DNA of 64,000 nucleotides, from positions 10,745,758 through 10,809,757 of the forward strand of contig JARWKL010000009.1 of the NCBI GenBank assembly GCA_029961685.1. The letters run 5' to 3'. The notes beneath the pieces are model-generated. The model saw nothing but the letters and a program-made list of their open reading frames with translations, was not told the origin of the DNA and made no database searches. Both the position numbers and the translations under genes were made by a program. Shown piece after piece: positions 26,461 through 62,605 of this stretch (its first letter is position 1; each line of letters begins with the position of its first letter). This DNA comes from Aristolochia californica. Taxonomy: Eukaryota; Streptophyta; Magnoliopsida; Piperales; Aristolochiaceae.

Positions 26461-26762
26461 AAAATGTATATTAAATATAATTTATGTTCATAATTGTTGT
26501 ATAATTTGGGATATGTACATAGGGTTATTTGATTAGGCTTAATGGGATGGGGGGGGGGCGGGGGGTGTATTGTCTTGGGCCCATGGGCCATTTTGTAACA
26601 GGAAAATCTAAAGGTTAAATACCTAATGAAAGGGGGAAAATCCCCAACGGAAACATTTTGATTAATCTTTCGTCTGCTTTGTTTTGCCGTGAAACCAGAG
26701 AGCTACGCTCTCTCTTGTGGGTGTTTGGACTGTTCCGTCAGTCCCTTGATTTTGATTTGTCA

Positions 26763-26774
26763 TGGTATCAGAGC
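26763..26774 (+). other. Primer binding site (tRNA-iMet) of copia copy 1
   Basis: TGGTATCAGAGC directly after the LTR end TTGTCA, complementary to the 3' end of initiator tRNA-Met, the usual copia primer. Confidence 0.9.
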
Positions 26775-29054: not shown

Positions 29055-30021
29055 TTTGACCTTATTCATAGTGATGTTTGGGGAATTGCTCCCGTTATCT
29101 CGCATGAACAAATTAAGTACTTTGTCACCTTTATTGATGACTTTAGTCGATTTACCTTAGTCTACTTCCTACGGGCTAAGTCTAAAGTTTTTGTCATTTT
29201 TAAGAGGTTTCTTGCCCTCATTGAAACACAGTTCTTCGCTCTGACTCTAGAGGCGAGTACATGTCGGCAGAATTCCAAGAATTTCTTCAAAGCAAAGGCA
29301 TTATCTCTCAACGTTCTTCTCCCTCGACACCCAACAAAATGGTGTTGCTAAGCGCAAAAATCGTCACCTTCTTGATATGGTCTGCACCCTTCTCATTGAA
29401 TCATCCGTTCCTCCTAGGTTTTGGTGTGAAGCTCTCTCTACCTTCGTCCATTTAATTAACCCCCTGCCTTCGCCTGTCTTGCATCATGTCTCTCCCTTTG
29501 TTAAATTATTCGGTTATTCTCTGTCCTACATAGATCTTCGGACGTTCGGTTGTGTTTGTTTCGTGCATTTACCTGATCATGAACGATATAAACTTACAAC
29601 CCAATCTGTTATGTGTGCATTTCTTGGGTATGGCGGTTCTCAAAAGGGCTATGTTTGCTACGATCCTCAGGCGTGTCGAGTCCTTGTTTCTCGGAATGTG
29701 GTCTTCTTTGAAAACCAATATTTCTTTCCCTCTCAAGTTACACTTCCGTCTACCTCTTTTTCTAGTTTGTCGAGCTTTGATGAGCCTCAACCCACTGCCT
29801 CGCTGCCCTCTCCTCCTTCTGACCTAGCGCTTGCTCCTGATCCTCCCTCTGCTCCTGCTCCCCTCAATCTTCACAGATCCACATGTAGTTCTCACCCTCC
29901 TGACTGCTTTGGTTTTCCCTCCCCTGTATCTCTGGTAGCTACTTTGTCTTCTATTTCCATTCCTTCTAGCCATAAACAGGCTATAGCACATGAGTGTTGG
30001 AAAAAGGCCATGCAAAACTGA
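29055..30021 (+). pseudogene. copia copy 1 integrase core and linker, frameshifted
   Basis: The core continues after the stop with FDLIHSDVWG and FIDDFSRFTLVYFL, carrying the first two catalytic acids. A one-base deletion near 29330, relative to copy 2, shifts the frame. The rest reads from 29377 (PPRFWCEALSTFVHLINPLPS) through GCVCFVHLPDHERYK to a Pro/Ser-rich linker. At the catalytic Glu position both copies have Lys (AKRKNRH where copia elements normally have AERKNRH). Confidence 0.8.
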
Positions 30022-30133
30022 ACTACAAGCGCTAGAGGAGAATCACACCTGGGACATTGTGGCTTGCCCTCCTACTATTCGACCTCTTGGAAGAAAGTGA
30101 ATCTTCTCTGTCAAGCTGCGTTCAGATGGATCG

Positions 30134-30511
30134 TTGGATCGGTACAAAGCCCGTCTTGTGGCCCTGGGGAACAGGCAGGAATATGGGATTGATTATGAGG
30201 AAACTTTTGCCCCATTTGCCAAGATGACCACAGTTCGTACTATCTTAGCCAGTACGGCCTCTCAATCTTGGCCATTGCATCAGATGGATGTGAAGAATGC
30301 CTTTCTCCACGGTGATCTGCAGGAAGATGTCTATATAAAGCTTCCCTCGGGTATGTCTACATCCTCTCCTGATCAAGTCTGCAAGCTCCGACGTCCTTTG
30401 TATGGGCTTAAAGAAGCCCCCCGAGCTTGGTTTGAGAAATTTTTTAGCACACTTATCCTCCACCGGTTTACCCAGAGTCAGTATGATTCATCTCACTTTA
30501 ATCATCAAAAA
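30134..30511 (+). pseudogene. copia copy 1 reverse transcriptase, 5' fragment
   Basis: Reads DRYKARLVALGN, YGIDYEETFAP, MDVKNAFLHGDLQED and LYGLKEAPRAWFEKF, then ends at the junction with repeat X about 25 codons before the YVDD site. It lacks the stop found in copy 2 at 60675. It cannot encode a polymerase. Confidence 0.88.
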
Positions 30512-30690: not shown

Positions 30691-33235
30691 CTTTAAAATA
30701 TTTCTTATAATTTTCTAGTAAGTCACTAATAGTAATAGGATTTTATTTAAAAGACTTTTTGGAAATATGTATCATAGGAAAAACATTTCTAGTTTTTACT
30801 AGAATATAAATTTTCAACCAGGCTCGAACATAGGCAGGTTCAGGCTCGGCTCAGGTCGATGCCACCCCTGCTTCCCACCAGTGACATGTCTAGATAAGGA
30901 AGTCGGAGTAGCTTCTCTTGAAATGTTGTTCCATTCGACCTCGAAACGGTTAGGTAGTAGTTTCTGGTCAAGGTTTGTCTGGAAGGTTTTGACATAGTTG
31001 AAGACGTAATCCCATCTCCCACAACTTCAACCCAACAAATTGGTCTTTCAATTCATACATAATTTCGTCCAACCGATTCACCGTCGGGAGTGCCTCTATC
31101 GGAATAGTAGTGCAAATGCTCTCTCTGGGTAACTTTGCATCCTTCTCCGCTGAATGCACAATTCTATATCTTGTCCTCCCTTCCAATTTACAATTTTGGT
31201 GTTAGAAACGAGGCGAAGAGAAACAAAAAATTATAAACTAGGTCAATAGATGGAAGAAATTAGGATACCATCAATTGTAGTAAGCCAAAATTGAGTAGAT
31301 GGTGGCGATTGTGGTGAGAGCGTTCTAGAAATCCATAGAGTCAACAAAATTGATAATATCCCATGGGATCTTGAAGCCCATGAAAACCTTCCACCGAGTT
31401 TTATTTTTAATTTTTAAGTTACTTATCTTATTTTGTTAATTGAAAAATCTAAATAAAACTATCTTAATAAGGTCAAATCTATCACAGTATTTTATTAATA
31501 TATTTTCCATTATGTACACTAACACAAGAGAGTACTTTACGTTGCACTTTCCATTGAGCACCCTAAGGCCTTATTAGTACACTCTGAAGTGAAAGTGAAA
31601 ATGAAAGTACTTTCATTAGTGAAAATAGCCCAAAACCTGTTAGTGTATACCGTAACTGGCGAGTGACACTCATTCTTGAGAAAAAAAACGAGGGAAAGTA
31701 AAATCACTCCTCCCTGAGGTTAGTGAATTCACTTTCACTCGCATGCTCACTTGCTCTCTCACTCTTGTTATGCTCATTTTGCCCTCTCATTTTCGCATTT
31801 GGATATAATAAAATTAAATATTTGTTTAAGTATTTTATTTTATACATTTAATTAAATTTAAAAAGATTAATTTAATTAATTAATTATTAATTTAAACAAG
31901 TTGAAATTTATCTTACATTATTAAAAAAGTTAAAATAATTAAATTATAAAAATTAAATCTAACAAAGTAATTTTAACTATTTTTATTTATATAAATTCAT
32001 GATTTTAATATTATATTTGATTTCTAATTTAAGAGTGAGAATTTGGATTTTACACAAGTAACAATTTGATTAAGAATTTGGATATTATAAAAGAAAGTAT
32101 TTGTTTGATCATATTTTTATATATTTAACTAAAAAATTAATTATTAATTTTTTTATTAATTTTAGATAAGTTTTATTTTTTAAAATTATATTTTTATTTA
32201 AAACAAGTTAATTTTTTATTAATTTAAAACTTCTTAAAATTTATTTTATTTTAGCCAAATATTGCTATTTAAATTAAAAGTAAAATCTATTAGATGATTT
32301 TGTAAAATAAAATAAATTTTTTTATTTATATAAAATTCTTATTTTTCACATTATATTTAATGACTATTTTAAGAGTGAGAATTTAGATTTTTTAAAGTAA
32401 CTATTTGATTAACATTTGGATAATATAAAAGCATGGATTTGTTTAATCATTTTATAAATATTTAATTAAATAAATTGTCATAATTTTTTAATTATTTAAT
32501 ACTTTAAAATTAATTAGATATGTTTGAGTTTAATTAAATAAAAAATCTAATAAATTTAAAATTTAAAAGTATTTTTGAATAATAAAATACCATCTTTTTA
32601 TTTACCTAAATTTATAAATTTTAATATTATATTTAATTATTATTTTAGGAGTGAGAATTTAGATATTAAAAAGTAACAATTTGATTAGGCATTTTGATAT
32701 CATAAAAGTGAAATTTTTTAAGTTATTTATTTATATATAAGTAATTAATTAAATAAATAAAGTTTAATTATTATTATTATTGATGAATTAAGAAGAGTTA
32801 AAATCTATCCTAACTTATTAATAGAAAATTTAGATAAACAATATCCTATAAAATTTAAATCTATTGGAGTATTTTATTAATAAATTTCTTATGTACTTTC
32901 CACTAAACTTTCCATTATGCATACTAACATAAAAAAATAATTCACTTTGACTTTCACTTTCAAAATGCACTAAACCCCCCTTGAAGTTTGTAGGAATGAT
33001 TTCTTTGGAAAATATTCGCACGAAAGTAATCTTTCTTTTAAGATGTGCAAATATCTGAAAAAGAAAATTCCATATTGCCTTGTGACAAGAAAGGTGTATG
33101 AAAGGACCCGAAAATGTAAATAGCTAATGTCCATTAGGCTCAAGAAATAAGCACTGAAAGGGAAGACCTATCCCTTCCCAGAACTAGTGGAGGATATTTC
33201 TAGATTTGGATTTCTAAATTTTTTTGGGAAGGGCA
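30691..33235. repeat. Single-arm copy of the large repeat, second block
   Basis: Equivalent to 8889-11360: the hAT-like end (30780-30880), the proximal frames (31186-30968 minus; the plus-strand frame here has a stop), and the AT-rich TIR-like insert (31567-32983). 30740-30810 keeps about 60 bp absent at 8935. No intact gene. Confidence 0.65.
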
Positions 33236-34602
33236 TTGAGATGGCCTTGAACATTATCTATATCAATTTTAGGAAGTTTTAATTTAACTTACTCAACAAT
33301 TCCTTAGGTTGAATAGTACCAAGACGGTGGTTTGGTGGACAAGAAGAGAAGAATTCCTTTGGTGAGTATTAGGAGGAAGTTTCGAAGGTTTCTAATACTA
33401 TTCACTTAAATTGCATTTCTCATTATATCGAAGTTGGCATTTGGATGGAAAGGACTGAATGCGAAATGGAATCTGTTTGCTCACACAACTTCAGATTGGA
33501 CGTTTTGATGGTTTCAAATTCTGGTCACATAAATTGTATTTTCTCATTGTATGAAAGTTGGAATTTGGATGAAAATGATTGAATGAGAAATGGAATCTAT
33601 AGAGCAATATCCATAAAGAGCAAGAGGTAAAAAAAAGAAGACAAAAAAAATCTAACAAGACAAGTGTGAATAATAAACCATTCTTGTGCTCCTAAAACAT
33701 CATTCTAATATTCAAATTTCAATAAGTACTTCATCACACAATATAATAAAAGTTATTACGATACATTAACCATCCTTTTAGAACATCTAAGAATTACACT
33801 CCCACATTCAATCATCACAACACACATTTCTGAATACTTAAACCAATGGTGTCAGATTAAAGAGCTTGTAACGGGTTTAGTTGGAACACCGAGCCTACAA
33901 CAAACTTGAGTCATAATGATAAGACGGTTCCAGGAATAGATGTGATGTCCGCAATATGAAAGTCTGACAGTTATGGGTGGTTTCAAACCAAGCTGGCTCG
34001 AGCTCGGCTCCGTTCTGGCACGGTTCAATTCAGTATACCTGGATCTTGAGCCGATTTTGAGATCCGGGATGGGCTCGTTTAAATTGACGAGCCGAGCTCA
34101 ACTGAATCAAAGTTTGGCTCGAAAGCTCATGAGCCGGCTCGTTAATTTAACAAGCGGTGCAGGATTCGGGGGATTTGGGGGAGTCGGGACTAGGGAGCGG
34201 GACCAAGAGCTGGAGCGTCGAGCGGAGTGGGAGAGAGGGGAGAGAGAGCGGGGGGGGGGGGGGGGGGGGGGGGGGAATTCTTCCTCCCCTCGTCACTGCT
34301 GAGCCCCTCCCATCCGTTGTTGTTGCCACCTTTGTCGCTGTCGACAATTGCCTCACCGGCCGCCTTCTGCCTTTTCGTCACCACTGATTTTGTGGCCACC
34401 GCTATATTTCTTCCCCCTAGTCTGCCTTCACCTTTGTTTCCGTCGTCACCGTTTCCGTCATCACAACCGTTATTGCCGAAAAAAGTTCCTTGCCGACGCC
34501 GCTGGAAACTTTTCCCTCCGCGTCGTTCCTCATCCTTGGTGGAAACCAGAGGACCTAAGTTAGAAGGAAAAAAATAATCCCCCCTAGCGAGAAGACAATT
34601 TC
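33236..34602. repeat. Repeat X first half plus left part of the hAT-like insert
   Basis: 33236-33970 is X. 33971-34602 equals 12117-12723, including the GC-rich stretch, here with a G26 run at 34250-34275. The similarity stops sharply after CAATTTC at 34602, where second-block-specific DNA begins. Confidence 0.7.
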
Positions 34603-35640
34603 CTCATCAATAGACACCGCCGGTACCGCCCCCCCGGACACTCTCGATGTGGACCAGGCACACCTCCGCTTCTCTCATGTCAGGTTACCCTCCACCGCGA
34701 AAAATCTGACCCTATACACTACTTCCGTCGAGTACCGTCGCAGCTAGCTTCCATTTTTTCCCCGCTCTCGCCCATCAGAACGGTGTGACTCCTCTGTCAA
34801 GATCGTCGCCATTGAACAAGTTACTGGTGGAGATTGCCGAAGAGAAAGTCCTTATAATCGATGGAATTCTGGTGGACGAGCCGCCTGGTGCCGCTCGTGC
34901 TTGGTCATCGGCGTCGGAAATAGGCTTTTTCTCTCTCACAAACCCAATTCTTACAAGACAAGGGTATGCCGCCCGTGGGAGGACTTGGGCCCGTGCGCAT
35001 GTGCATCAAAATGCTTGGTGCTTACCTCTCGTTTCCGACGTCGTTCTGTACTGTTCACGCAGATATTTAATTGCTATTTCTATTGAATGTCGATTCTCAG
35101 TTTGCAAGCGGAAAAGAGCAGCTGCCATCAGCACGTCAGTTTCAAACGCCCTTGTTGAATTTCATATTTACTTGCCTTCTTGTTTCCTTTTCAGTTCCTT
35201 TCTTTGCTTCTCTACGTAAGATGCTCTTTGATTTTAAGCATTTTCAAATTTAATAATGAAAATGCCTAATACTATCCAGGAATGTAATTTTTCTGTATTT
35301 TTCTTGGTTATGTTTGGTTGATTCGACATAATGTCCAGGATAGCTAACTTTAGAAAGGCAAAAGTAAAAGTGGTTTTTTGGCTACATTTCCATGCTACAC
35401 AAGTAAGCCTTTTGTTAAATATGACCTTATGTTAGAGCTAAGTTTATTTCCATTCCGGAATGTGGCTTTTTCATTGCTCTTGAAATGGCTATTTGGATAG
35501 ATATCTCAGCATTTAGTTTTCATCTGACATTGTTTCAAGTTTCTTGAGCTAGAGCTACCACTGATTTGTGGAGTGGAATTGACCTATCATTTGGTTGCTC
35601 GTTGTATTGCCCTAATAATGATCTGATTTTTTTATTCTTG
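34603..35640. other. Second-block-specific sequence upstream of the NT-C2 pseudogene
   Basis: Moderately GC-rich to about 35070, then AT-rich. A 144-codon plus-strand frame (34785-35219) starts MTPLSRSSPLNKLLVEIAEE; I do not recognise it, and its second half is T-rich and low in information. It may be leader or promoter DNA of the gene that follows, but no exon of the expected NT-C2 N-terminus is seen. Confidence 0.3.
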
Positions 35641-35642
35641 TT

Positions 35643-36839
35643 GATACTGGAAAGACAACAAAAACAAAAACAACCAAAGCCAATGTGGGGAATGAGAACT
35701 GCAAATGGTCGGATCCTATCTATGAGACTGCAATACTATTCCAAGATGTTAAAACTAAAATGTTTGAGGAGAAGCTCTACAACCTTGTGGTTGCAATGGT
35801 ATCTGTCGTTCTTTTGAACTTCTCTCTCTCTCTCTCTCTCTCTCTCACTTGGACCCTATATCTCATCTCTTTCTTTTCTTATAGAAGCCTATTATTTTGT
35901 TATTGTGTTAAACTAATTTAGAGTTATTTATCTTTAGTAGACATTTAGAAGGGATATTCTTCTGTTTTGTCAAGGATCATCTCGTTCTAGCATCCTTGGT
36001 GAGGCCACCATAAATCTGGCGGACTTGCAGACGCATCAAAACCTTTATCTGCTGCACTTCCTCTTCGGGGGGGCATTCTTGTGTTGGATTAGTTTCCTTT
36101 GTGTGCTGTTGATGGTGATCGTTTTTTCATGACTTGGTAACCATAAACTTGCTACTATTTTCTTCTTTTTCTTCCAAACTACTAATTGCACTCACAACTT
36201 CTTGAATTTTGGAAAGAAGAAAATCAGACTTGTAGGTGATCGGAAAAGAAAAAAAAATTCTATCTTTTGCTACTAATTGGGCCTGCTTAGATTCAACTTC
36301 ATTAAGTGAATGCTTCAAACTCATGTGTTTTGTACTTCTCATAGTGTTTGCCTTGCGTCATGTAAAAGGTATAAAAAATGGTAATGTTGTGAATTTTATC
36401 TGTATGGCAGGTTACAATCCAACTTCTCACATCTAAAACTGGCTACAGGTGTTGCTTCAGTGATCCTACAAATTTGCATTGACTTCATTATTAACACTAT
36501 AGTTTGAGACGTTGGATAAGGGTATTGATTCATCTAAGTGAAGCATGTTTTCCCAGAGCTAAGTGATTTGATGTGGAGGGAAGTTTTGTTGCATCAATCG
36601 TTGGGATTTTCCTATCATCTTCTTGCGGCTTCGTCTCGATTTTCTTGAAGTTTTGAGTTTTAATTATTTGTGAAATCGGTAGTTGGTCTAAATTTTCATT
36701 GGATTGTCATAGAGAGTTTGAACAACGATGAGATGTCAGAGAGAGGAGATTTTAGATGCCCACTGGTCCAAGCGTTCATGATAAATCTGCCAAAAAAGTG
36801 TCATCTTTTGCAGAGGCGGCAAATGATCAGATTGACAAG
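35643..36839 (+). pseudogene. NT-C2 domain coiled-coil protein, 5' exons (broken)
   Basis: Pieces of the plant NT-C2 domain, a membrane-binding C2 variant at the N-terminus of long coiled-coil proteins, appear in order. 35643-35798 reads TKANVGNENCKWSDPIYET and EEKLYNLVVAM. 35975-36090 reads SSRSSILGEATINLADLQ. 36411-36448 reads VTIQLLTSKTGYR. About 36700-36839 reads MSERGDFRCP then, after a one-base shift, KKVSSFAEAANDQIDK. GT/AG borders surround most pieces. The domain's N-terminal strand is missing, the end of exon 2 is degraded and frames do not join cleanly, so the gene is dead here. It continues at 44341 after an intron filled by an LTR element. The homology is recalled, not searched. 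Confidence 0.75.
35820..35847. repeat. (TC)n microsatellite
   Basis: Uninterrupted CT dinucleotides in the first intron of the NT-C2 pseudogene. Confidence 0.9.
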
Positions 36840-37941
36840 GTTTAGAATTGTCATTTCTTGCTAGAGTTTAAACGTACATTAAACAAACAATGAGAAACAT
36901 ATTTAGGAACTTACCGGAAATGGAATGAATCAAATTACTAACATGCATATATGCATATTGTTCATATACATTGTTATGAACTCAATAGCAGGCCGGGTAA
37001 TGCAAAGGCACAATGGTTGAGTCTTTTAGTATTAAGTTAATTATTTTTCTTTCTATTTACTTTTGCTTCATTTTTATTTTAATTGATGAGTTAGTATGCC
37101 ATAGGGGCAATACTGTAATTCTTTCTCTTGAACCCTTGTTAGCGTAAACCCTACTTAAGGGGTGAAAGGAATGAGAAAAGACAAGTCTGATTTTAGTCTA
37201 ACCAAGGTTTTGAGTTCTCCTAAACGAGCTCAGGGGTGTGCGTTCTCCTTAATGAACTTAGGGTTTTCAAACTTCCCTTCGACTTTATTCTTTTCTTCTC
37301 TTTTTCTTCCCTACGAATCACTGTGTTAGATCCGGGACCATAACAACTGGGTATTAGAGCAGGGTAACATGGGTATTCCAGCATTGACGAGTTAAGAGAT
37401 TTGGTTGTTAGAGTGTAGAATGTATGGGTAAAAAATGAGGTGAGGTTTGCTTATATCAGACAGCTGTTGGAACAAATCCCAACTCTTTGACTCCAAATCG
37501 ACAGACTTGAAAAGGAGGTACGAAGGGCAGCAATGCAGGCATAAGCTGAGGCATGAATGAAAAGAATCGACCAGCAACTCGACAGACTCAAAATGGAAAT
37601 GTGTATAGCAGCAATGCCTGATGATATACGTCCGTCTTCCATTGAAATGTCGAAGAGATTGAAAAGTCGTTGTTCTAGAAGAAGACGGGGCAACCTTTGT
37701 CTCAACAAATAATTTTGGCTGTTCCGAAGTCGATCGACCTCAAATTTCTTTGGAACAACCCGATTTGGGCTCATAAGTTTTCGTCGAGCTCCTCTGTACT
37801 CGGCAACCTAAACTAAAGCCCAGCCTCTAGAAATCCGAAGTCAGGGAGACTGGAAATTTTCGAGCCTAGAGGCTCAATGATAAAGTTTGCCCAGATACCT
37901 CCTTCGTCAACATAGTGGCTGTTGTTCGCCGTTGATAAAAA

Positions 37942-38538
37942 TTTCCTAAGGTCATTCTTCTCGGCAACGACGGTGCGGGGAAGATCTCGTTGATAAATCA
38001 ATGGGTCGTGCTAGCAGATGCAAACAAGAAAGACCAAAAACCCAAAATCTTTGATTTCACAGTGGAAATTGTTGCCTTGGCGGAAAAAGAGAATTCCGGC
38101 AGTAAAATTAAACAATTGTTTCCCCTTATCTCAATTTGTTTCTCACATGTTGTTCGTTACAATGGTAAACACCAGCCAGAAAATGGGCTATCGGAGAAAT
38201 GGTGTCACAGAGGATTCTGGTGTGCCGTCTCTGCTTTACTATCCTGGTTGTGGTCTTGTTTCTGTGCAGGCAGTGGCCAATCTTTGAAGGAACCTTCATT
38301 GAGAAGATCAACTACTTCATCACCGTTGGTGCTTACAACTAATTCTTGCGAACCTTCAGAGGTCGTTTGTGGAACAAATCCTTTGGTTAACATGTATTCA
38401 GCCTGCGGAGATGTAGTGTCCGCTCGAACACTGTTCTATGAAATTATTCTACTAGGTCTGGTTTCTTGGAATTATATGGTGTACAGTTATGCAAAGTGTG
38501 GGACTAAGGCGTCTCTACCAGGTAGCTATTCGACTTAA
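37942..38538 (+). pseudogene. Captured Rab-like GTPase P-loop exon fused to a PPR piece
   Basis: 37942-38007 reads FPKVILLGNDGAGKIS followed by LINQWV, closely resembling the start of Rab7/RabG proteins; the P-loop Thr/Ser after GK is Ile, so nucleotide binding would be impaired. The frame stays open through unidentified sequence (38010-38370), then reads LVNMYSACGDVVSARTLF and GLVSWNYMVYSYAKCG, a PLS-type PPR array. The frame ends at 38536-38538, but PPR-like MPERDVV continues in another frame. The frame from 37990 is 182 codons and joins at least two unrelated genes. No function is claimed. Confidence 0.7.
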
Positions 38539-38771
38539 TGCCGGAACGCGACGTTGTAGTTGGTAGACCGCCACCTAGCCTCTATATGTCATTAGTGGCC
38601 GTGGGGATGAAACCATAAAATCAAAGTGCCCATAAAATCAATGGCGCACCTGTATCTTCTTCCCTACAAATGCCTGGAACACAGTGCATATACAGGAAAA
38701 CTTTTGGGTGTTTCCATAATTAGAGTGACAGTGAATATATGGCTGGTCAGCTTTGAGCATTTGGACATGTA

Positions 38772-38960
38772 ATGCGTGATAATCCAGAGGAGGTAGATCC
38801 TTGGTTCACTAATACGTGTACTGTGAAATCTTCTAGTCCATCAGCCAAGGAAACTTTAAATTCAAAATGCAAAAAGGATGGTATGTCCCTTGTAGTGGCT
38901 GGATGTGTGTCTCAAGGAAGTAGATACTTGAAGGAGCTTGGAGGGATTAGTATAACTGAA
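38772..38960 (+). pseudogene. Captured fragment of a CDKAL1-type tRNA methylthiotransferase
   Basis: Reads DNPEEVDPWFTNTCTVKS, KKDGMSLVVAGCVSQGS and RYLKELGGISI. NTCTVK and VVAGC carry the first two conserved cysteines of the MTTase N-terminal domain of the t6A-modifying CDKAL1/MtaB family, which in plants and animals adds methylthio to tRNA position 37. The radical-SAM CxxxCxxC part is absent, so only the N-terminal domain was captured. It leads in the same frame (ORF 38772-39173) into a PPR-like FWNALGACQIY. Confidence 0.75.
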
Positions 38961-39320
38961 GTGCATACACTGTTCTGGAATGCTCTAGGTGCTTGCCAAA
39001 TATATGTAGAAATGCTAAGAGGTATTAAGACAGGAGCTGGGAGCATGGTTGAAATCGTGCAAATTGATAGGGGAGGTGCAATGGCAATTTTGCACTCTAT
39101 ATCAATGGGAAGGCTTCCACTTGCCGAGGGAATGAACGCCAATTTATCTGCTGCTGCTACAACAATTCGCTAGAGAGCACTAATTGCTCTTTGTGAGTCA
39201 TCTCAGAAGAATTATAGCGACGTTGTTGCTGCCAAATCAGACCTAAACTATATTGGTCAGCAGATAGAGAAAATACTTCAACTGAAGAATTATATTGTTG
39301 TTTGTGAGAACATAATCAGG
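38960..39320 (+). pseudogene. Captured PPR end piece and an unidentified coding segment
   Basis: 38965-39010 reads FWNALGACQIYVEM, like the end of PPR arrays (WNALLGAC). It is followed in frame by an unrecognised helical-looking segment (MVEIVQIDRGGAMAILHSIS, then LAEGMNANLSAAATTIR) to a stop at 39171. After the stop the same register continues with SSQKNYSDVVAAKSDLNYIG and LKNYIVVCENIIR, which looks like one conserved host protein I cannot name. Confidence 0.5.
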
Positions 39321-39442
39321 TATAGAATCTTTGTTAAAAAAATTATTGAGTCACATGATGTGATAAAAATGTGTGTTCTGAAGTGTGACCCAAATTTGGC
39401 AATAAGTCTCATGAATGTGAATGGCCGTCATTAGACCTATAC

Positions 39443-40150
39443 ATGCATATCTACAAGCAAAAGCAAATATTACATGTCCTTGCTGATCTGGTGACATATA
39501 CCATACTCCTAAATGTCTATTGTCTGGCTGAGAGTGTAGAGAGGGCACAAGATATTTACGAGAAAGTAAGACATATGGCATCAGTTGGGGCTTGCAGATT
39601 ACATCTCACCACCTACAACACAATTATAAAGGTTTTTACAGATGCCAAAATGTCGCAATTGGCATGGAAAATAACAGAAGAGATGGTCTCAGATGGTGTT
39701 AGTCCTAATGTTGTCACCTGGTCATCATTGATTAGTGCCTTTGCCAAAGCAGATCTAATGGAGCGTGCAATTCACACATTTGATGAAATGCTCCTCTCTG
39801 GCTATGAACCTTCATTGAAGCAGCAACTTCTAATCTCCATCATTTTTATGACTATTTGGATTGCAATTGTCAGCTACATTGCTCTGCCATCCAACTTCAC
39901 CCTCTATGATTTTGGAGTTGCGAAACTAGTTAAGAATTGGCACTTCTTCTTCTGTGTTGCTATTGGATTGTGGGCTGGACTCATTATTGGATACACAATG
40001 GAGTATTACACTAGCAATGCTTACAGTCCTGTGCAGGATGTTGCTCCTTCTTGCAGAACAGGAGCAGCAAAAAATGTGATCTATGGCCTCACACTGGGTT
40101 ACAATTTTTTCATAATTCTACTTAGGTTTCAGTCTTGCTGCCATATATAG
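39443..40150 (+). pseudogene. In-frame fusion of P-class PPR repeats and vacuolar H+-pyrophosphatase
   Basis: 235-codon frame. Residues 1-122 are PPR motifs ([71 protein letters not shown]). From about 39815 it becomes membrane pyrophosphatase: [74 protein letters not shown]. The TEYYTSxxYxPVxxVAxSxxTG-like region is typical of plant type I V-PPases, proton pumps of the vacuolar membrane. Frame is lost after LGYN, where about ten codons are missing, then the V-PPase continues at 40124. The catalytic first half of the pump is not present. Confidence 0.8.
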
Positions 40151-40275
40151 ACTTTCTGTGGCAGTTTTGGGAATGTTTAACACAATTACAACCAGGCTTG
40201 CGCTTGACACCTATGGAGTCAAGGGGGAGGAAGATCATGTAGCTTGCATGGTTGACCTACTTGGCCACAGTGGGT
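40124..40275 (+). pseudogene. V-PPase continuation fused to a PPR E-motif piece
   Basis: Reads [20 protein letters not shown] and RLALDTYG in V-PPase register, then switches at GVKGEEDHVACMVDLLGHSG, the conserved end region of PLS-type PPR proteins (usually EEDHYACMVDLLGRSG). A second chimeric joint between the same two gene classes, in the same frame. Confidence 0.75.
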
Positions 40276-41835
40276 ACCCTTTGATGTAAAATTTAGTTAC
40301 ATCGGCTTTAATACCTTGCAAGCGTACGAATCGTTCATGTAATCTAGCAGTAAGCGAGGGTCATATCCACAGGGAGGATTGAATTTTGTGTATTCTTCAG
40401 TCAACTAGCCTAACCAAATATGATGAATTAATCTGAACTAAACACTAATTATATCCTACATTATCAAGCAATAATCTAATTAACTACTTGCACAACAGGA
40501 AACGTCAACTCTGGATTTTATCGTGATTCGTGCCTCTCTCGAGCGCCACGAAACCACGAATCCGGATTCTCAATCCTTGCATCTAGCCCCTCTCGGGCGC
40601 CTAGAGTTAATGACAAAGAGCGGATTACAATAGAATGCAGAGAATCAATTTCCTTTTGTGATGATGCTAAAATTATCAACTCTGGATTTTACTGTGATTC
40701 GTGCCTCTCTCGAGCGCCATGTAATCACGAATCCGATTTCTCAAACCTTGCGTCTAGCCCCTCTCGGGCGCATAGAGTGAAAGACAGAAATCGGATTAAA
40801 ATACCAAAATCCAACCTCAATTATAATCCTACCCTAATTAGCTAATTTAATCAAATATCCAGAAAACAAATCTTAAATAAACATTAATTATCAAATCAGA
40901 TTCAATTAACATTCAAAACCTAAGTTCAAACTATATAAAAAATTAAATTCAATAATGATGAATTACTCCCCTTCTTCTTCCTCTCGGTCGGGCAGCAACT
41001 CGTTCTCACGAGTGCTGCAATTTCCCGAAATTGGTGGCGTTGGGTGGCAATAGTGAGTGGCCGGAGGTAGAGACGACGCCGGCGACGAAGGTTGGAAGCC
41101 GACGGATGGAGGTAACGTCCGGTGAAGAACGAAACAGAGATGAAGTTCTCTAACCGGCTCTCTCGAGTCTCGGTCGGAGTCGGAATCGCTCCGAGAATGA
41201 TCAAAAATACGTAACCGACGCCGGAGGATGGTCGAAAAGCGAAGTTTGGCACCGGAGAAGCCCTCTCGGATCACTTCTCGGCCTGGCGAGCGACGACTGT
41301 CGAACTCACCTCGACGGAGACTCTCTCGAGCTCTCCTCGGGTTTGTTCTCGGTTGCTGGACGTCAATGGACGACGGTGGACGATGGTGGCGCGGTGGAAG
41401 GTATTGGCCCGGCGAACGACGGCGGGGAACTCCTCTCGAGTCCTCCCCTGTTTCCGGTCAAAGTCCTCTGTTTTGGTCTCCGTCTCTGTTTTCTCTTCAC
41501 GCTTCCCCCTCTCGGGTTTTCCCTCCTGGGTCTCTCCTCTTGGTCCCTCTCGTTCGACGCTCCCCTTCCTCTTTAAATATGATTTTTCTTATTTTAAAAC
41601 TATTTGCCCTAGAAATTACCTCCATTTCACTAAGGGCATTTTGGTAAATATCTTCTTCTCCACCCAAATTCTCCTGAAATTCCATAATTGAATCTATAAA
41701 AAGCATTTCAGGAAGAAATAAAACTAAAAAATAATGAAATATAATTTAGGAGAGAGAAATATGCAATATAGACAGTGATTAATGCCAAATTCAATAAATG
41801 CTCATTTCATTTGAAAACCGATAAATAACCACCTA
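40276..41835. mobile_element. Uncharacterised 1.5-kb insertion within the captured region
   Basis: Interrupts captured PPR sequence: VDLLGHSG stops just before it and [12 protein letters not shown] sequence resumes at 41830. It begins near TGTAAAATTTAGTTACATCG and contains GCGAGGGTCATATCCACAGG. 40500-40670 and 40672-40812 are a direct tandem repeat of about 150-170 bp rich in CCTCTCGAGCGCC / GCCCCTCTCGGGCGC. 40960-41560 is GC-rich with overlapping frames on both strands (for example 41252-40926 minus) that I do not trust as genes. Ends and family are unresolved. Confidence 0.4.
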
Positions 41836-42915
41836 TAACACAATTATAAAGGTTATTCTATTATAATTAACCTAGTTCTCATGTCAGAATATGGCATCTA
41901 TCAGTACCCTGCAACAGCAACCAAAGTGATAGAGGATTACACTGGCCAGACTGGGTGCTGGCCCAACATATCATCCACGGTTTTTACTGTTGCCTACAAA
42001 CCAGTGATGTACATACCATCAATTCTAGATCAATTTATTGTAGTGGGTTTACTCACAGCTAGCGCGAATCTGGGTGCATTACATAAAGGGAAACTCTTGT
42101 AGGCTTACATCAAGAGAGATTTTAACTGCCCCCATTCACAGTACTTTACAGAAGCTGAGGTTCTCACTAAAATTTGAGCACGGCTATTGGTGGGTTACTT
42201 GCATGAATATTCATGTGAGGCTTATGTTGCTGCTCTCTATTATGGGATAAACAATACAGGAAGTGGAAAATAGATGCAAATGTTTTCAGGTCAACTATTT
42301 TTAGTGCCAATTGAACTTGATCTGGGTCCAAGAATTGGACTTATTTACACAGAATTAGTCAGAGCCTTAACCAGTACTATTGCGGCTACGTGTGGATTTC
42401 ACAAGGATATGTAGAGTGGTCCGAGGTCAGTAGTTTATGCCAAAAAAAAGAGATGGTACACTGACAGAACTTGGGTAGACAACAAGTCAATACATTATAG
42501 TTCCCTATTTTGTTAACTTTTCGCATTGGTGGGTTCATTCTCACATGGGTTTCCAAAGATTATGGTGGAACATCTTGTTGGCCAGTCATGGTTGGAGCAG
42601 GTGATAGTTTAGACTATTGTTTGGTTGCTTGACCATGTGGTGGGTTGCTGCAGCGAGTAATGCTGGAAGTGTTGGATTCTCACCCAAAAAAACAATTTTC
42701 TGGAGGAACATTCTGTCAACGGGGGAAACCAGTGGTGGATTTCGGATACCGCAATCTCTCCGTCCGAGGTGTTACATTGGAGCGCTTACACTGTTTGGGT
42801 CGCCTAGTGGGTTGACACAGATGCCACAGATGTTACATGGGAAGATGTGGAGACGTTTCAGCACACATACCCTACCTTCATGCTTGAGGAAGCTCTTTCT
42901 CCACGAGGGGAGTGA
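41836..42915 (+). pseudogene. Further captured pieces and gypsy polyprotein tail
   Basis: 41881-42020 has an open, unrecognised coding-like segment (YGIYQYPATATKVIEDYTG). 42040-42120 reads VVGLLTASANLGALHKGKLL then AYIKRDF, a PLS-type PPR segment with a stop inside. 42121-42420 has more coding-like pieces I cannot name (HSQYFTEAEVLT; LVGYLHEYS). 42800-42915 ends with ATDVTWEDVETFQHTYPTF and MLEEALSPRGE before a stop at the PPT, matching the usual Ty3/gypsy integrase C-terminal end (ATWED...FPxFxLED). Confidence 0.5.
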
Positions 42916-43319
42916 TGTTATGAACTCAATAGCAGGCCGAGTCATACAGAGGCGTAGTGGCTGAGTCATCTAGTATTAAGTTAATTGTTTTTCTTTCTAT
43001 TTACTTTTACTTTATTTTTATTTCAATAGACGAGTTAGTATGCCGTAGGGGTATTATTGTAATTCTTTATCTTGAACCCTTGTTAGCATAAACCCTACTT
43101 AAGGGGTGAAAGGAATTAGAAAGGGCAAGCCTGATTTTAGTCTAAACAGGGTTTTGAGTTCTCCTAAACGAACTTAGGGTTGTGAGTTCTCCTTGACGAA
43201 CCTAGGGTTTTCAAGCTTCCATTCGGCTTGATTCTTCTCTTATCTTCTTCTTCCCTACGAATCACTGTGTTAGATCCGGGACCGCAACATCCACACACAT
43301 GAGCACCCACGCACAACCT

Positions 43320-43320
<1 letters not shown>

Positions 43321-43386
<66 letters not shown>
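43321..43386. repeat. C42 homopolymer followed by (AC)n
   Basis: 42 consecutive C then 12 AC units, about 30 bp after the 3' LTR end. Longest homopolymer in the window; its true length is uncertain. Confidence 0.85.
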
Positions 43387-43393
<7 letters not shown>

Positions 43394-44340
43394 TACATAT
43401 ATACACTTTAGTTGATGATTTAAATAATTAAATTCTAATTGACAGTAAACTAAAGTTATAATTGATGTGACTGAAATTTAACCAACTTATTTGGAAAGAT
43501 TCTATAAGATTTTCATTTGAACCTTTTATTTGTGGCAATATACGAACTTATGTTTTTTTTTTTTTTAGACCATGAGAAGGTAGAATTCATTGAGAAACAT
43601 GCGACCATGATATAGCCAAGGATTTGCAGATGTCCCATTTAATTGAGTAAATGTTTACTGTAATTTTTGGGAGTGTATGTATTCTCTATTATTGACTTGC
43701 ACAGTAAAAAATTTTTATTGAAACGTATTTGCTGTGTGTGCATGAAGTTTCGTAAAGATTTACTATAAAATTTAGGAAAACTTAAAAAGATTTTAAAAAT
43801 TTTGGAAAAATATTACTTTGTTTTGCAAATGAATATTCCCAAAAATATGTTGCCTACATGGAGAAAGATTTCAGGTAGCCATGGATGTCTTCTTGCTTGC
43901 TGCCTTTTCATAGTTTCAACGGGACGCCTGACCCTTCTGATTTACTTGCTCTATTCTTACAGAAAATAAAAGTTGAATAATACTTCATTATGTTGCTATA
44001 TCCTGATGTTTGTCATTGTGGTTTCTATTAAGGTTGCATGTTGCATGTGTGTGAATTTATATCTTTCTCTATTATCAAGTACTCTGCTACTTGCATGGTC
44101 TTTTCTTATTTTTCATTACTATGACACAGTTAACTTTGTCTTTGAAACTGATTTATAAAATTCACTTTCAGGTCAATGTTTTGATCTATCTAATAGGCTC
44201 CTGGTGAAAATTCCATTGAAATGACACACTAAATTCTTCAGGTCTTACTGTTGGTTTTTGAAATTTTATTTCACTTCATTTTTTTCATATTTAATCTTTT
44301 CTGGGATGGGGTTTCATGCTTATTTTCACTTTTAAAGCAG
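43387..44340. other. Intron remainder of the NT-C2 pseudogene
   Basis: AT-rich, with no coding frame I trust, ending in a pyrimidine-rich stretch and the acceptor AAAGCAG at 44340. Confidence 0.5.
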
Positions 44341-44944
44341 GTAAATTCAATAGTAAGATTCAAATCAGACTCTACAGAGCTAATTAAATGCTTATTATCC
44401 TCAAATGTTGATGGTGCATTGACCCATCCAGAGGACATTCTAAAGTCTAGATTGCATCGTCAAAAGTTAGATGTAGCTGAACCAAAAGACAAACTTTGGA
44501 ATGAAGAGCCTGTTAAAAAGCTAACCGGTAGATCATTTCCATCACATGAAGAACTCTTGGTGGAGCAGAAAGCTGAACTTTCTGGGGTGTATGTACAAAA
44601 TGTACATTTTGGGAGTGTCTTCAGATATTTTAGAAGGGGATTTGGATGAAATCAATGGTAAGATTAAACTTCTGAAGCAAAAGATATAGATAGCTTGAGT
44701 AGCAGTTAAAGCATGAAGACGATTCTAGAGGATTTTTGACTCTTAAACTTCAATCTACGTTGCATGAGATCGAGATATTGAGGGACTCTGAAGTTGAGTG
44801 CATATCTAGATGCAATGATTTGAAGTCAGAAAATCATGTTCTGGAAGTAGAATTACAGAGTACCACAGCTGAGAACTCTCACCTCACTCATAAACTTGCT
44901 GAATGTGAAGAAGTTATCTCAGAACGCAGAAGTTACGAATTGTA
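44341..44944 (+). pseudogene. NT-C2 coiled-coil protein, downstream exon (broken)
   Basis: Begins right after AAAGCAG and reads VNSIVRFKSDSTEL, which continues DQIDK at the end of the 36839 exon; related plant proteins have DQxDKVNARVRFKSES-like sequence there (recalled, not searched). Further on are charged, coiled-coil-like segments: SDILEGDLDEINGKIKLLKQ, LKLQSTLHEIEILRDSEVEC, SENHVLEVELQSTTAENSHL and LAECEEVISERRSYEL. A stop at 44647 in the first register, a frameshift, and a stop after LLKQKI show decay. The exon ends at 44944 against AT-rich repeat DNA; the rest of the gene is not in the window. Confidence 0.7.
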
Positions 44945-45279
44945 AGTGCTGGGGAAAGTGAAAGTACTTTACCTAGTGAAAGTGACAATTAATTACTTGT
45001 TTGTGTTAGTGTGCGTAATGAAAAATGCAATATAAAGTACTTGTTTGTGTTAGTGTGCACTATGTAAAGTACAGTGTATAGTACTTGTTTGTGTTGGTAT
45101 GCACAATGGAAAGTGCGGTGTAAAGTACAAAGAGATTATTTATTAATAAAATATTTTTATATATTTGACTTTTAGAAAATTAAATTAATATTAGTTAATT
45201 AATTAAATATAATAATTAAACAGATGCTTACTTTTATACTATTAAAATTTTAATCAAGGAAGGCCCACATATCCAAATG
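44945..45279. repeat. Fragment of the GTGAAAGTG-type element with short tandem repeats
   Basis: Starts GGGGAAAGTGAAAGTAC, like the subterminal repeats of the AT-rich TIR-like inserts. 44994-45130 holds three tandem units of about 45 bp, each with ACTTGTTTGTGTTRGTRTGC. It truncates the NT-C2 exon. Confidence 0.55.
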
Positions 45280-47047
45280 TGTTGGAAGATGGGTCCAAGC
45301 CCATAAGATATGGACTCACCATGATCACACGAGCTAGTGGGACCCACCATGATCACATGTGGCATGATAAGTCCTACACAATAATAAGTATTACAGTATT
45401 AGATTTATTGTGGACACAAGTCTCGTCGAAGAGTTTTAGTTTAAAGTTATTTGAGTCATGTTAGTCTTCTTTTTATATTGGGTTATTTAATTATGCTAAG
45501 ACTTATCAAGTGTTAGAGTTTGGGTGTAATTGGGATAAAGGTAGTTTAATTATAAATGGACTCTACTACCTTCCTCTATTAGAGGTTTATGCACTCTATT
45601 ACAACAAGTCAATAAAGTATTTTTTTTCCATAAATTCAACATGCTCTCAGAGCAGGTTCTGTGTGTTGACTCGGTCAACCCACAGAGATAATGTGATCAT
45701 TTTTCTGATCTATTATCTCAAGCAGTTTAGCTTCGTATTTCTCTTTTTATAGTCCCTATACCTATTATTTTATTTACGTTTTCACATCTATGCTGAGATT
45801 TTTATATTTCATATTATATATTGATGGAAAGATATTCGAGTCTATTTTCCATAGAAAAATGACTTTTTGAAATCGGAGTTATCTACAAAGAGAAATCAAT
45901 ATTTGAAGCAGCAAAGGTCAGATTACAAAAGAAATTCATGCAGCAGTAGAAAGCTTCAACTTCCGAGCTATTTTATGCTATCAAGAACGAGACTTTATAT
46001 GGAGAAATATATAAAAAAAAATATATACAAGTCTATTTTCTTAATTATTCAACCAATTCTATATCTGACTTTTTTATATGGAGATATTGATCTTGGAAGA
46101 GTCAATGGTCATGCTAGAAAAAGGGGAAAAAATACTTAGTTCGGCATATACCCAAATCTACCAAATTATATATCTCACTAGAAGTATATTTTATGAAAAT
46201 AAATTATACTTGGATGAAAGGTATTTAAGTCTAGTTTTAGAAGGAGAAAATTTTATGTCAATCTGATCTATATTTAAGGATATATTCGCATTGGAAGAAT
46301 TAAAGGTCATACTGGCATCCTGTGACTTTAAAAAATCCAAATTTAAGCCAATTGTTTTGCTTCACTTTTAGAGTTGTTGTTATTGATCAAGTGTATTAAA
46401 AAAAATATCTCACTTACCCCTTTTTTTGTTACTACATCTATGTTATTTAGTTCAAGATAGGAACATTACCATTACCTCCCAGCTTCAGGGAAAGAAATAC
46501 AAGAAAGAGGTATTTTATTCCATATATTGTGGAAAGTTTCATGTGACCAATATATTCAAGAAATGGGGAGCACAAAAGATGAAACTTTTGCATCTAAGAA
46601 GAAATTTTTTGCAGCAAAGAAAATTAATGATAAAAAATCTTGACTTGCAGTAATAATTGTGGTAATTATTGGAGATACTTGATTCAGCTGGACTCGATTC
46701 TATTTCTTTGGCTGAATTATTATTTTGAGGTATTCACAACATATTCCTTGGTCAACATATTATTTGGTGCAGGTAATCGTATCAAATTATTTCATGGGTT
46801 TTTACAAGGATTTTATTATTGTGGTCCATGTTATATGCGCTTGGGCACATTTTAGCTGCAGTTATTGTGTCTCTTTGGATGAGACATTATTATTGAAGAA
46901 GTGGTGGCCTCAGCATCCTATCTTCCCCTTTACCCATTACTTATTGGTTATTTGACAACCTTACTCCTACCATCCTTTATTTGACTCTTACATACTTCTT
47001 TGGGCCAACCTCTTGTGTGTTGCTTTGTTTGGGAGTTTAAGTCCATT

Positions 47048-47087
<40 letters not shown>

Positions 47088-48051
47088 TGGGTCTTTTATC
47101 ACCGTCTTATGAATGACGGACATTACCCACTTATCAGGTCTTTTATTGTCGTCTTGTGAATAACAAGCATTTATCACGTATCACGTCTTTTATTGTCGTC
47201 TTGTGAATAACAAACATTTATCACATATCAATGCCGGGGTTGGGTCACCGCGATGGAGGAGATTATTACTACATATATGTTACCCCCCATAAGTGGTAGT
47301 TATTACTCCTGCCACTTGAAAGTCGTTGTCCTGTGGAGGGACACGGTGATGGAGGAGTTTTTTCTGCACTTCTAAGCTCTACGTATAAACCCACTACCTG
47401 CAAAAGATAGGAGTGCCACTACCTGAGAATGATAGGAGTAGGCCTTATATCCAGCATGGGTTATGACTGGAGTATGGAGTGATGTCATACGGCTTGGAGT
47501 GATTTTACTCTCACTTATCGTATGCCAGTTGGGCCTCATGAAAGAGAACACCAGCGTGAGGGGGAGTATTGGATGATATGGAGGACTGCCATTTTATACG
47601 ACAAGATCCTATACATCATTTGCAGCAAGCTAGGAGTTCATAATGCTCTCTCATCCCCAGTTTGAGGGGAAGTGTTGGAAGATGGACCCAAACCCATAAG
47701 ACATGGACCCACCATGATCACACGAGCTGGTGGGACCTACCATGATAACGTGAGGTGGCATGATGAGTCCTACACAATAAGAAGTCTTACAGAACCAAAA
47801 TTATTATGGAAGCAGGTCTCGTAGAAGAGTTCCAGTTTAAAGGTGTTTTAGTCATGTTAGTTTTCTTTTTATATTGAGTTATTTAATTATGTTAGGACTT
47901 ATCTTTAAGTGTTAGAGTTTGGGTGTAATTGGGATAAAGGTATAGTTTAATTGTAATTGGACTCTACTACCTTCCTATATTATAAATAGAGGTTCATGTA
48001 CTCTGATTACAACAAATCAATGAAGTATTTATCTTTTCCATAAATTCAACA
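45280..48051 (+). mobile_element. Non-autonomous LTR retrotransposon (2.8 kb)
   Basis: 5' LTR 45280-45641 and 3' LTR 47673-48051 start TGTTGGAAGATGG and end AAATTCAACA. A PBS-like TGCTCTCAGAGC follows the first (two differences from TGGTATCAGAGC) and GTTTGAGGGGAAG precedes the second. The 2.0 kb interior has no gag or pol; it contains (TA)n at 47058-47086 and near-tandem units with TCTTTTATTGTCGTCTTGTG (47091-47220). The LTRs are clearly diverged from each other, and flanks AAATG / GTTAT do not match, so the element may be a recombinant. Its 3' 477 bp also occur at 16496-16972. Confidence 0.8.
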
Positions 48052-48321
48052 GTTATATAAAAAGGATATTATAAAATATTTTTTAGCTCAATATCTATTA
48101 GTAATATCAAAATAATATTAATTTATTAACTTAATATATAAAAATTAAAATATTCACACAAATACTTACTTTTATAATATAAAAAAACTTAATGCCATTA
48201 TTATATTAAAAGTGTTTAAATTCTCACACTTAAACTAACGTATATTCGCAGTTATATTTGTTTAAATTCATTACCCATTGTACTATGCAAACAACGTAAT
48301 AATAAAAATAAAAAATAACAT
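48052..48321. other. AT-rich spacer
   Basis: Equivalent to 16973-17241. Nothing recognisable. Confidence 0.5.
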
Positions 48322-49571
48322 TGGTGATTTTCAAGACTCCAGGAATTTATCTCATGGAGAAAAAGGAAAAGAAACCCATTGGGAGAAAACTGGAGGAAGA
48401 AGGGTTATGGAATTTATGATCCTAACCCTCCCCCTGAATCTCTATTTATAGATTTATGAACCTACTGTATTACAATAATACCCCTGAACTTAGGGTTTAG
48501 GGTTTTAACCCTAGAACTTTAACTTAATTACAATAATGCCAACTCTATGAAATGACTTTTTATTTACATCCTGCCATCATTGTATGTGGGCCTATGGGCC
48601 TTTTCCTTGATCTGTGGGCCTTAAGCCCGTCTTCTATATCTCTTGGTTGCATGTCTTCCTTGGTCTTATGGGCTTGGGCTTTCCTTGGTCGTGTGGGCTT
48701 GGGCCCTATCTTCCAACACTCCCCCTCAAGCTGGTGGTGAGAGAACAATATGAATTCCCAGCTTGCTGCAAATGATGTATAATATCTTTGTATAACATGG
48801 CGCATTTTCCAATATGCCTTCATCTTCCAACACTCTCCCTCATGTTGGTGCTCTCGTTCATGAGGCCCAGTTGGCATAATATCAGTGAGAGTAAATCACT
48901 CCTAACCACTAAGACATTACTCCATACTTCAGTCATAACTCATGTTGGATGTAGGACACACTCCGTCTTTTGTAGGTAGTGTGTCTATCGGAATTGCTCT
49001 GAAGTGTCCACGTCCACCACCGTGTCCCTCCACAGGACAACGAGTCTCAAGTGGTAGAGTAATATATGATATTAATGGGGGAAAGTAACATAAATATAAT
49101 TATAAGTTCCTCCATCATGGACTTCCAACTTTAAATATTTTTTATATTTTTTACGGGAATGAAGTTCCTATAAAACAGAGTAACCTCAACCCAGGAACAT
49201 CGTAACAACAATCAAGAAGATAGCCAACGCAGAACTTTATTTTAATAAAAAGCTGATTTCGTCCCACCACATGCTCTTAGAAGTGCTTCAATGGCTTATG
49301 GACTTACAGAAGAAGAAACTAAAAATGAAAACAAACAGGGAATAGGTATTACTCTGGATGCGATTTGTTGCTGAAGAACACCTCTATTTGTAGGTGATTT
49401 GTAGCACTGAATCGAGGAAGACAGCTGGGAGACAGCTACGGAAATAAGATAAAGGAAGCTTCCTTTCTCTTCCGGCGCCGATGGATGCATCTGTACCCTC
49501 TGTCCACTGCAACGGTCAGTACAGAGTCACCTCTATTTTTCGCTCCTTCCATTAATTCCCGTTCACACTTG

Positions 49572-50272
49572 AGTCCTTTTAATTTTTCGTTCATGCTTGG
49601 GTCTCCCCGTACCCCGCCGCCAAGGGGGCCAACCCCCATGGACCCCCGTCGGGGCTGTCGCCCCGAACCCCACCTTCATTTTACAGTTTCTTCACAAATA
49701 ACCATTGCGGTCACAATTTGACCTCATCAACGTCAAAGCCAGAACTGCTAACTAATTTACTCACTCTCGACATCGGCGCTCCTCATAATTGGGGGCCAGT
49801 GAATACATTAGATTAGCAATAACTCGTGAGAGGTGGGCATTGACACACTAACAATTCCTCCATCATGGACTTCCAACCACAAATATTTTTTATCCTCTGT
49901 CATGGACTCCCCAACCACAATTCCTTTTAATTTTTCGTTCATGCTTGGGTCTCCCCGGACCCCGCTGCCAAGGGGGGCAGCCCCCTTGGACCCCCGTCGG
50001 GGTTGTCGCCCCGAACCCTGCCTTCGTTTTAAAGTTTTTTCACAAATAACCATTGCGGTCACAATTTGACCTCATCAGCATCAAAGCCAGAACTGCTAAC
50101 TAATTTACTCACTCTCGACATTGGCGCTCCTCATAATTGGGGGCCAGTGAATACATTAGATTAGCAATAACTCGTGAGAGGTGGGCATTGACACACTAAC
50201 AATTCCTTCATCATGGACTTCCAACCACAAATATTTTTTATCCTCTGTCATGGACTCCCAACCACAAATAAT
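49572..50272. repeat. Local tandem duplication, about 350 bp per unit
   Basis: Units 49572-49919 and about 49922-50272 both start CCTTTTAATTTTTCGTTCAT and contain the GC-rich GGACCCCCGTCGGGG palindrome. The first-block element (18455-18780) has one unit, so this happened after the block duplication. Confidence 0.75.
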
Positions 50273-51394: not shown

Positions 51395-51739
51395 TGTTAA
51401 TGATAGTTCCCACATACATTAGTGAGTATAAAAATCTTGCATTTATTAGTTGGCAGAAGAGGTTTCCTACGTGGCTAGTCATTTTGGGATAGGGACTTCG
51501 ACCCAATTTGATATGGTATCAGAGCAAGGTTCTCATATGTGGTCATCCACCCAAATTATCCACGTGCTACCATGTGAGAGCCTCTACCTAAATTATCCAC
51601 ATTCTACCATGTGAGGGGGAGTGTTAAGGATAGTCCCACATACATTAGTGAGTATAAAAATCTTGCATTTATTAGTTGGCGAAAGAGGTTTCCTAAGTGG
51701 CTAGTCATTTTGGGATAGGGCCTTCGACCCAATTTGACA
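51395..51739 (+). mobile_element. Nested TRIM, second copy
   Basis: LTRs 51395-51513 and 51622-51739, PBS TGGTATCAGAGC at 51514-51525, PPT GTGAGGGGGAG before 51622. Same position within the host element as 19931-20274. Confidence 0.85.

Positions 51740-62558: not shown

Positions 62559-62605
<47 letters not shown>

Follow-up and report, generated by a model that had tools for sequence, protein, structure and literature searches.

A likely gene-mosaic LTR retrotransposon in Aristolochia californica carrying sense-strand pieces of several host genes

How does a retrotransposon come to carry pieces of several unrelated host genes where its own coding region should be? The question is raised by a 6.3 kb long terminal repeat (LTR) element located within a 64,000-nucleotide stretch of the Aristolochia californica genome (contig JARWKL010000009.1, positions 10,745,758 to 10,809,757; this whole stretch is referred to as the window, and all positions are given in its coordinates). 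A first-pass annotation had described an LTR retrotransposon that exchanged its polyprotein for pieces of several host genes, and the LTR pair together with the sense-strand pieces between its members supports that description. We consider it likely that the element is a gene mosaic built by template switching onto host mRNAs and driven by a helper element. The observations that carry this reading are the LTR pair, the sense orientation of the pieces, the parentage of a CDKAL1-type piece, a fusion common to the element and to a predicted A. californica protein (P0023), and junctions that keep the reading frame.

Organization of the element

The two LTRs have TG...CA ends and align as a gap-free direct repeat, with 330 of 374 positions identical; the 32 transitions and 12 transversions correspond to a Kimura two-parameter distance of 0.130. 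A degraded primer binding site (PBS)-like sequence, TGGGTATTAGAGC, lies directly inside the 5′ LTR, and a purine-rich polypurine tract (PPT)-like sequence, GAGGGGAGTGA, lies directly 5′ of the 3′ LTR, both being read off the sequence; we take the former site, ACTGGGTATTAGAGCAGGG, to resemble a PBS for initiator Met-tRNA. The LTRs, PBS-like site and PPT claimed at first pass are thus borne out. The gypsy-like tail claimed alongside them is recognizable by eye but has no domain support, and neither it nor the gag-like leader, also seen by eye alone, has a relevant Pfam match; membership of the Ty3/gypsy superfamily is not established. The features of the element are as follows, where V-PPase is the vacuolar H+-pyrophosphatase.

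36972..37345, + strand: 5′ LTR, 374 bp, TG...CA; 88.2% identity to 42916-43289
37346..37364, + strand: PBS-like site ACTGGGTATTAGAGCAGGG, read directly
37365..37700, + strand: leader with degraded coiled-coil-like frames, possible gag remnant (by eye; no Pfam gag model)
37930..38007, + strand: N-terminal Rab7-like GTPase piece with P-loop, weak (PDB Rab7 E 0.0021; Pfam Ras E 0.016)
38362..38558, + strand: PLS-class PPR piece ending LFDLMPERDVV, with an internal frame change (Pfam and PDB for the first part; LFDLMPERDVV by eye)
38550..38966, + strand: piece of a CDKAL1-type methylthiotransferase, starting near residue 6 of the parent, with three stops (tblastn, PF00919, tree)
38967..39436, + strand: open frames not assigned to a gene (Pfam matches at chance level at most; PDB E 0.06 at best)
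39437..39814, + strand: P-class PPR piece (PPR_2 E 1.2e-23; PDB; P0023)
39806..40217, + strand: type-I V-PPase piece, in frame with the PPR (Pfam; mung-bean V-PPase alignment)
40212..40274, + strand: probable PLS-class PPR piece YGVKGEEDHVACMVDLLGHSG (sole PDB match the synthetic PPR-DYW, E 0.26; motif recognition; no Pfam match)
40285..41809, no strand assigned: probable later solo LTR, 1525 bp, TG...CA; TTTGA at 40280-40284 and 41810-41814
41828..41857, + strand: 30-bp second copy of P-class PPR sequence (28/30 to 39608-39637)
42028..42096, + strand: probable PLS-class PPR piece, ..LGALHKGKLL (PDB 5iww E 0.85; motif recognition; no Pfam match)
42103..42270, + strand: M16 peptidase piece (PF16187)
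42271..42807, + strand: sense frames not assigned to a gene (no match in Pfam or PDB)
42808..42915, + strand: short gypsy-like pol tail, ..VTWEDVETFQHTYPTF.. (by eye; no Pfam match)
42905-42915, + strand: PPT-like GAGGGGAGTGA, overlapped by the gypsy-like tail
42916..43289, + strand: 3′ LTR, 374 bp (LTR alignment)

Identity of the captured pieces

Three of the pieces score above the Pfam cut-offs, all of them named in the first-pass annotation and now confirmed. The CDKAL1-type methylthiotransferase piece matches UPF0004 (PF00919) with E 1e-13 (51.5 bits, cut-off 27), and at 38550-38972 it is identical at 105 of 141 residues (tblastn) to the N-terminal part of the A. californica protein P0124. 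The P-class PPR piece matches PPR_2 with 83.4 bits (cut-off 30), and the V-PPase piece, lying in the same 253-aa frame, matches H_PPase with E 9.2e-18 (64.7 bits, cut-off 29.7) and aligns with about residues 359-506 of mung-bean V-PPase, with an internal deletion or frame change near 40140. The PLS-class PPR piece at 38362-38558, also claimed earlier, has good E-values but remains just under the Pfam cut-off: its first part matches Pfam PPR with E 7.5e-5 (23.2 bits, cut-off 25) and a synthetic PPR-DYW protein in PDB with E 1.3e-17 when summed over three repeats (single repeats 0.0013-0.0031), and its end, LFDLMPERDVV, is recognized by eye against the synthetic PPR-DYW consensus. The M16 peptidase is a further gene source, absent from the earlier list; it matches PF16187 with E 8.4e-6 (25.5 bits, under the cut-off of 29.7; a shorter piece gives E 4.9e-4) and has no PDB match. 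The Rab-like P-loop of the first-pass annotation stands in part: its best PDB match is Rab7, starting at Rab7 residue 4, and the top 22 of its 32 PDB matches are all Rab-type, 21 of these being named Rab7, Rab9 or YPT7, but its match to Pfam Ras is below the cut-off, and this Rab7-like assignment is weak, the least secure of the named pieces.

From these matches the gene sources are probably six: three above the Pfam cut-offs, two well indicated and one weak, the Rab7-like piece being the sixth. The count treats the P- and PLS-class PPR pieces as coming from separate genes, which is likely, and gives five indicated sources, with a sixth that is probable. The earlier claim of at least four unrelated gene classes is supported, with CDKAL1, PPR and V-PPase above the cut-off, M16 below it and Rab7-like weak. 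No credible Pfam match was found in 39020-39436, 41860-42020, 42271-42807 or the leader, and where PDB was tried the best E was 0.06. A supposed run of the CDKAL1 exit into a PPR E motif was dropped, PDB and Pfam scans of it giving no match.

All of the identified host pieces lie on the sense strand of the element, as had been claimed. Among the 18 antisense open reading frames of at least 60 aa, the ten that were scanned gave one match, at chance level (E 0.06), and the remaining eight run into the LTRs or into the nested insert. The first-pass annotation had placed recognized and unassigned protein pieces in the interior (37346-42915); about 1.5 kb of it, at 40285-41809, is probably a later solo LTR and not cargo, which would leave an element of about 4.8 kb. 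The solo LTR reading depends on one TG/CA candidate with a 5-bp repeat; when the sequence is resampled, at least one such candidate turns up in 31% of trials across the searched ranges, against 1% across narrow border ranges chosen post hoc. Within the probable solo LTR there is also a 128-bp direct duplication (88%) at 40505-40803.

Origin of the CDKAL1 piece

The plant parents of the CDKAL1 piece are recovered with a query free of PPR words, whereas a PPR-containing query listed three distant relatives, the PPR words having presumably crowded the candidate list of this first protein search. Among the best 120 of 414 hits, the top two relatives come from A. californica, listed at 71%, and A. 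fimbriata, at 68%. A tree built from 20 of the 120 listed relatives and the window piece (21 rows) joins the window piece to A. californica (96/89), on a branch of 0.4 as against 0 for the A. californica gene. Of the 136 comparable columns, all three sequences (the window piece, A. californica and A. fimbriata) share 95; in 27 only the window piece departs from the other two, and in 3 each sequence has a state of its own. The window piece agrees with A. californica only at 10 and with A. fimbriata only at 1. The tree pairing and the column counts together indicate that the source gene belonged to the A. californica lineage once this had separated from A. fimbriata, and that the piece has been evolving freely since its capture.

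The divergence of this piece also bears on its age. Its identity of 105/139, with stops counted among the changes, corresponds in simulation to about 0.12-0.14 changes per site, compared to 0.065 per LTR branch, and at 0.065 changes per site none of 1500 neutral simulations was as diverged; these values assume neutrality, the substitution bias of the LTRs and an unchanged parent, and errors of reverse transcription also count towards them. The piece looks about twice as old as the insertion and, because its divergence is about twice that of one LTR branch, its capture probably predates the insertion of this copy.

A PPR/V-PPase fusion that recurs in a predicted protein

The fusion of P-class PPR to V-PPase is not confined to the element. 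P0023, a predicted A. californica protein of 370 aa that contains H_PPase and PPR domains (found among the best 120 of 423 hits), is identical to the window fusion at 172 of 225 residues, without gaps across the junction. Over 106 V-PPase columns the two share six states that occur at most once among 90 plant V-PPases (119 less the 29 without the anchoring motif), one of the six being the PPR-derived junction residue; seven states are private to the window and 11 to P0023, and a further seven differences are unassignable. The PPR part (91/120) and the V-PPase part (81/106) have diverged equally, whereas plant V-PPases have a mean identity of 86% (500 random pairs), a pattern that fits neutral drift of two copies. 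As to selection on the PPR/V-PPase frame, there is no firm evidence: when neutral decay is simulated with the divergence seen here (0.06-0.07 per branch), about 7-8% of runs end with no stop in either copy.

The V-PPase of P0023 runs 103 residues past the YG at which the window element turns PPR-like. Because it continues past this switch, the fusion is present at least twice and the cargo has probably changed stepwise; the simplest order is that PPR and V-PPase were fused first and the 3′ part of the V-PPase was replaced later. The open frame of P0023, holding the same fusion, could alternatively mean that chimeric host transcripts or retrogenes such as this one were already fused and were taken up whole. 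However, the private V-PPase changes on both sides and the equal divergence of both parts below the plant mean make P0023 unlike a conserved gene, and we think it rather unlikely that pre-fused transcripts explain the mosaic.

Junctions and mechanism of capture

Four junctions have a nameable sequence on each side: PPR to CDKAL1, P-class PPR to V-PPase, V-PPase to PPR, and PPR to M16. They have several features in common with the use of mRNA templates. First, the translations keep frame at all four, an outcome expected about once in 81 for independent junctions (the frame change in the PPR piece ahead of CDKAL1 lies farther upstream). Second, short runs of residues match both sides, namely DVV at PPR/CDKAL1, P at P-PPR/V-PPase (PS with some of the designed repeats), and YG at V-PPase/PPR. 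At PPR/M16 the residues AYIK lie inside the M16 match, and we take them to resemble the PPR side as well. When joins between V-PPase, CDKAL1 and the PPR part of P0023 are simulated, at least one shared residue occurs in 12-13%, at least two in 1.0-1.3% and at least three in about 0.1%, figures that are indicative, as the overlaps actually observed were read against designed or synthetic PPR proteins and the junctions were picked for their known sides. Third, the pieces run unbroken against the parent proteins, CDKAL1 over 141 residues and V-PPase over residues 359-506 apart from the one deletion.

The sense orientation, in-frame junctions and short two-sided residue matches make template switching onto mRNAs the best mechanism, and microsimilarity permits switching between an LTR element and an mRNA (PMC5408686). 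The first-pass annotation had proposed such switching, which fits the sense strand, the four frames and the residue matches at three junctions; it is still a step that we infer, as are the spliced templates, the co-packaging, the helper element and the number of rounds. A non-autonomous LTR retrotransposon of an Aristolochia lineage near A. californica would have had its own coding region almost wholly replaced by a mosaic drawn from a number of spliced host mRNAs, probably six. The particle, reverse transcriptase and integrase would have come from a related autonomous helper element, the host mRNAs co-packaged with the element RNA would have served as alternative templates, and reverse transcriptase would have switched between templates at short matching stretches. 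The LTRs, PBS and PPT would have been retained, so the chimera would still be copyable; its cargo was probably altered over more than one round, and the copy would then have inserted, decayed and later probably taken up the solo LTR. We put forward more tentatively, as a possibility that we rate below even, that this is a parasitic lineage that swaps cargo among host mRNAs at in-phase microhomology over successive rounds. It would then act as a mobile shuffler of exons, with fusions (PPR/V-PPase among them) that spread in Aristolochia and may enter annotations as new open chimeric proteins.

DNA transposons offer another route, in which a Helitron or Pack-TYPE element gathered genomic pieces and then landed in, or was captured by, an LTR element. 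Helitrons and Pack-MULEs are prolific collectors, with 1194 gene fragment captures by Helitrons in maize (PMC2774510). However, the identified pieces here are all sense, the aligned pieces have no intron-like interruption, whereas Pack-MULEs hold both exons and introns (PMC4717578), and the mosaic spans almost the whole distance from leader to PPT. Repeat searches of 35000-45000 (at least 25 bp) and of 40150-42000 found no inverted pair bounding the mosaic, although no dedicated search for Helitron ends or terminal inverted repeats was made. A DNA transposon origin seems to us improbable. Microhomology at junctions is also typical of DNA repair, and the junctions are compatible with filler, copied from cDNA or transcripts at breaks, having added pieces to an integrated element; the sense-only pieces, the in-frame junctions and the presence of the fusion twice fit an RNA or cDNA intermediate better, and we give repair filler very little credence. 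That host exons came to lie between two LTRs by chance or misassembly, as the lack of a clear target site duplication might suggest, is scarcely believable when the PPR/V-PPase fusion recurs in P0023, several pieces have stops or frame changes, and the LTRs are gap-free and equal in length.

Several points nonetheless weigh against a mosaic built by template switching. First, no clear 5-bp target site duplication was found at the element ends (left TACAT and right TCCAC, 3/5 equal), although this is an old copy beside a microsatellite and erosion is possible. Second, none of the gag, reverse transcriptase, RNaseH or integrase Pfam models matched in the pieces scanned. Third, one LTR-bounded copy is known, and P0023 is known as a predicted protein alone. 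Fourth, there is no Aristolochia V-PPase among the named matches listed, and some of the states shared with P0023 may be ordinary for the genus. Fifth, designed or synthetic proteins stand in for the PPR parents; the residue that follows P varies among them, and the PPR/V-PPase overlap may be a single residue. Of the four junctions, two include PPR pieces matched at E 0.26 and 0.85. Finally, intron absence and microhomology are judged on protein alignments. The microsatellite itself, a 42-bp C run followed by a CA repeat at 43321-43397, begins about 32 bp 3′ of the 3′ LTR.

Relationship to known gene-capturing elements

The window element differs from known gene-capturing LTR elements in degree and not in kind. 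LTR-mediated retroposition of mRNAs was reportedly described by Tan et al. in 2016. The process resembles the one proposed here in that microsimilarity guides the switch between the RNA of the element and a co-packaged mRNA (PMC5408686), and differs in that several mRNAs would be joined in one window element. Like maize Bs1, the element is an LTR retroelement in which segments captured from several host genes make up a chimeric gene; unlike Bs1, which holds three host genes (PMC13317346), it has probably six sources together with signs of stepwise change, and looks more extreme. A soybean and Medicago set of terminal-repeat retrotransposons in miniature (TRIMs) includes two with exons of more than two genes, and gene-carrying TRIMs such as GmaRetroS15 of soybean likewise have pieces of several genes between their LTRs, those pieces being exon-only, but they are 1,172-1,449 bp long, in contrast to 6.3 kb and 374-bp LTRs here (PMC4717578). 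Pack-MULEs and gene-capturing Helitrons, which are DNA elements, also carry host gene pieces; unlike Pack-MULEs, with their exons and introns, and unlike Helitrons, the window element has an LTR, PBS and PPT at its ends. In a maize survey, and under its conditions, no intact LTR element out of the 425 that bore gene fragments contained more than one standard nuclear gene (PMC2774510). The literature searched, in which subscription papers mostly fall outside coverage, yielded neither an LTR element with more than three sources nor a case from Aristolochia. Six probable sources, and a related fusion without one of the junctions, would allow the order of capture and the switch points to be read, and would move multi-template switching by LTR elements from inference to a testable series.

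Other features of the window

The element sits between two blocks of nested repeats, 1-34602 and 45279-64000, with mutual matches of about 93-97%. Thus 16493-22260 matches 47572-53735, parts of 23646-30505 match 53748-61004, and 1-3242 matches 60737-64000; within the left block, 8931-12723 matches 30814-34602. Whole-window Rfam and tRNA scans gave nothing at default thresholds. At 2113-2520 there are two tandem 192-bp units that are 5S-rRNA-like (RF00001, 26.0 and 24.7 bits; gathering score 38), each followed by the standard PBS word TGGTATCAGAGC, which occurs elsewhere in the window as well, including at 62950 and 63185; these units presumably resemble the 5S-carrying Cassandra TRIM elements. 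The AT-rich region 22623-25555 is 72% identical to its own reverse complement over about 3 kb, a large decayed palindrome. Long copia-like polyprotein frames are recognized by eye at 27765-30021 and 58488-61994, one in each of the repeat blocks.

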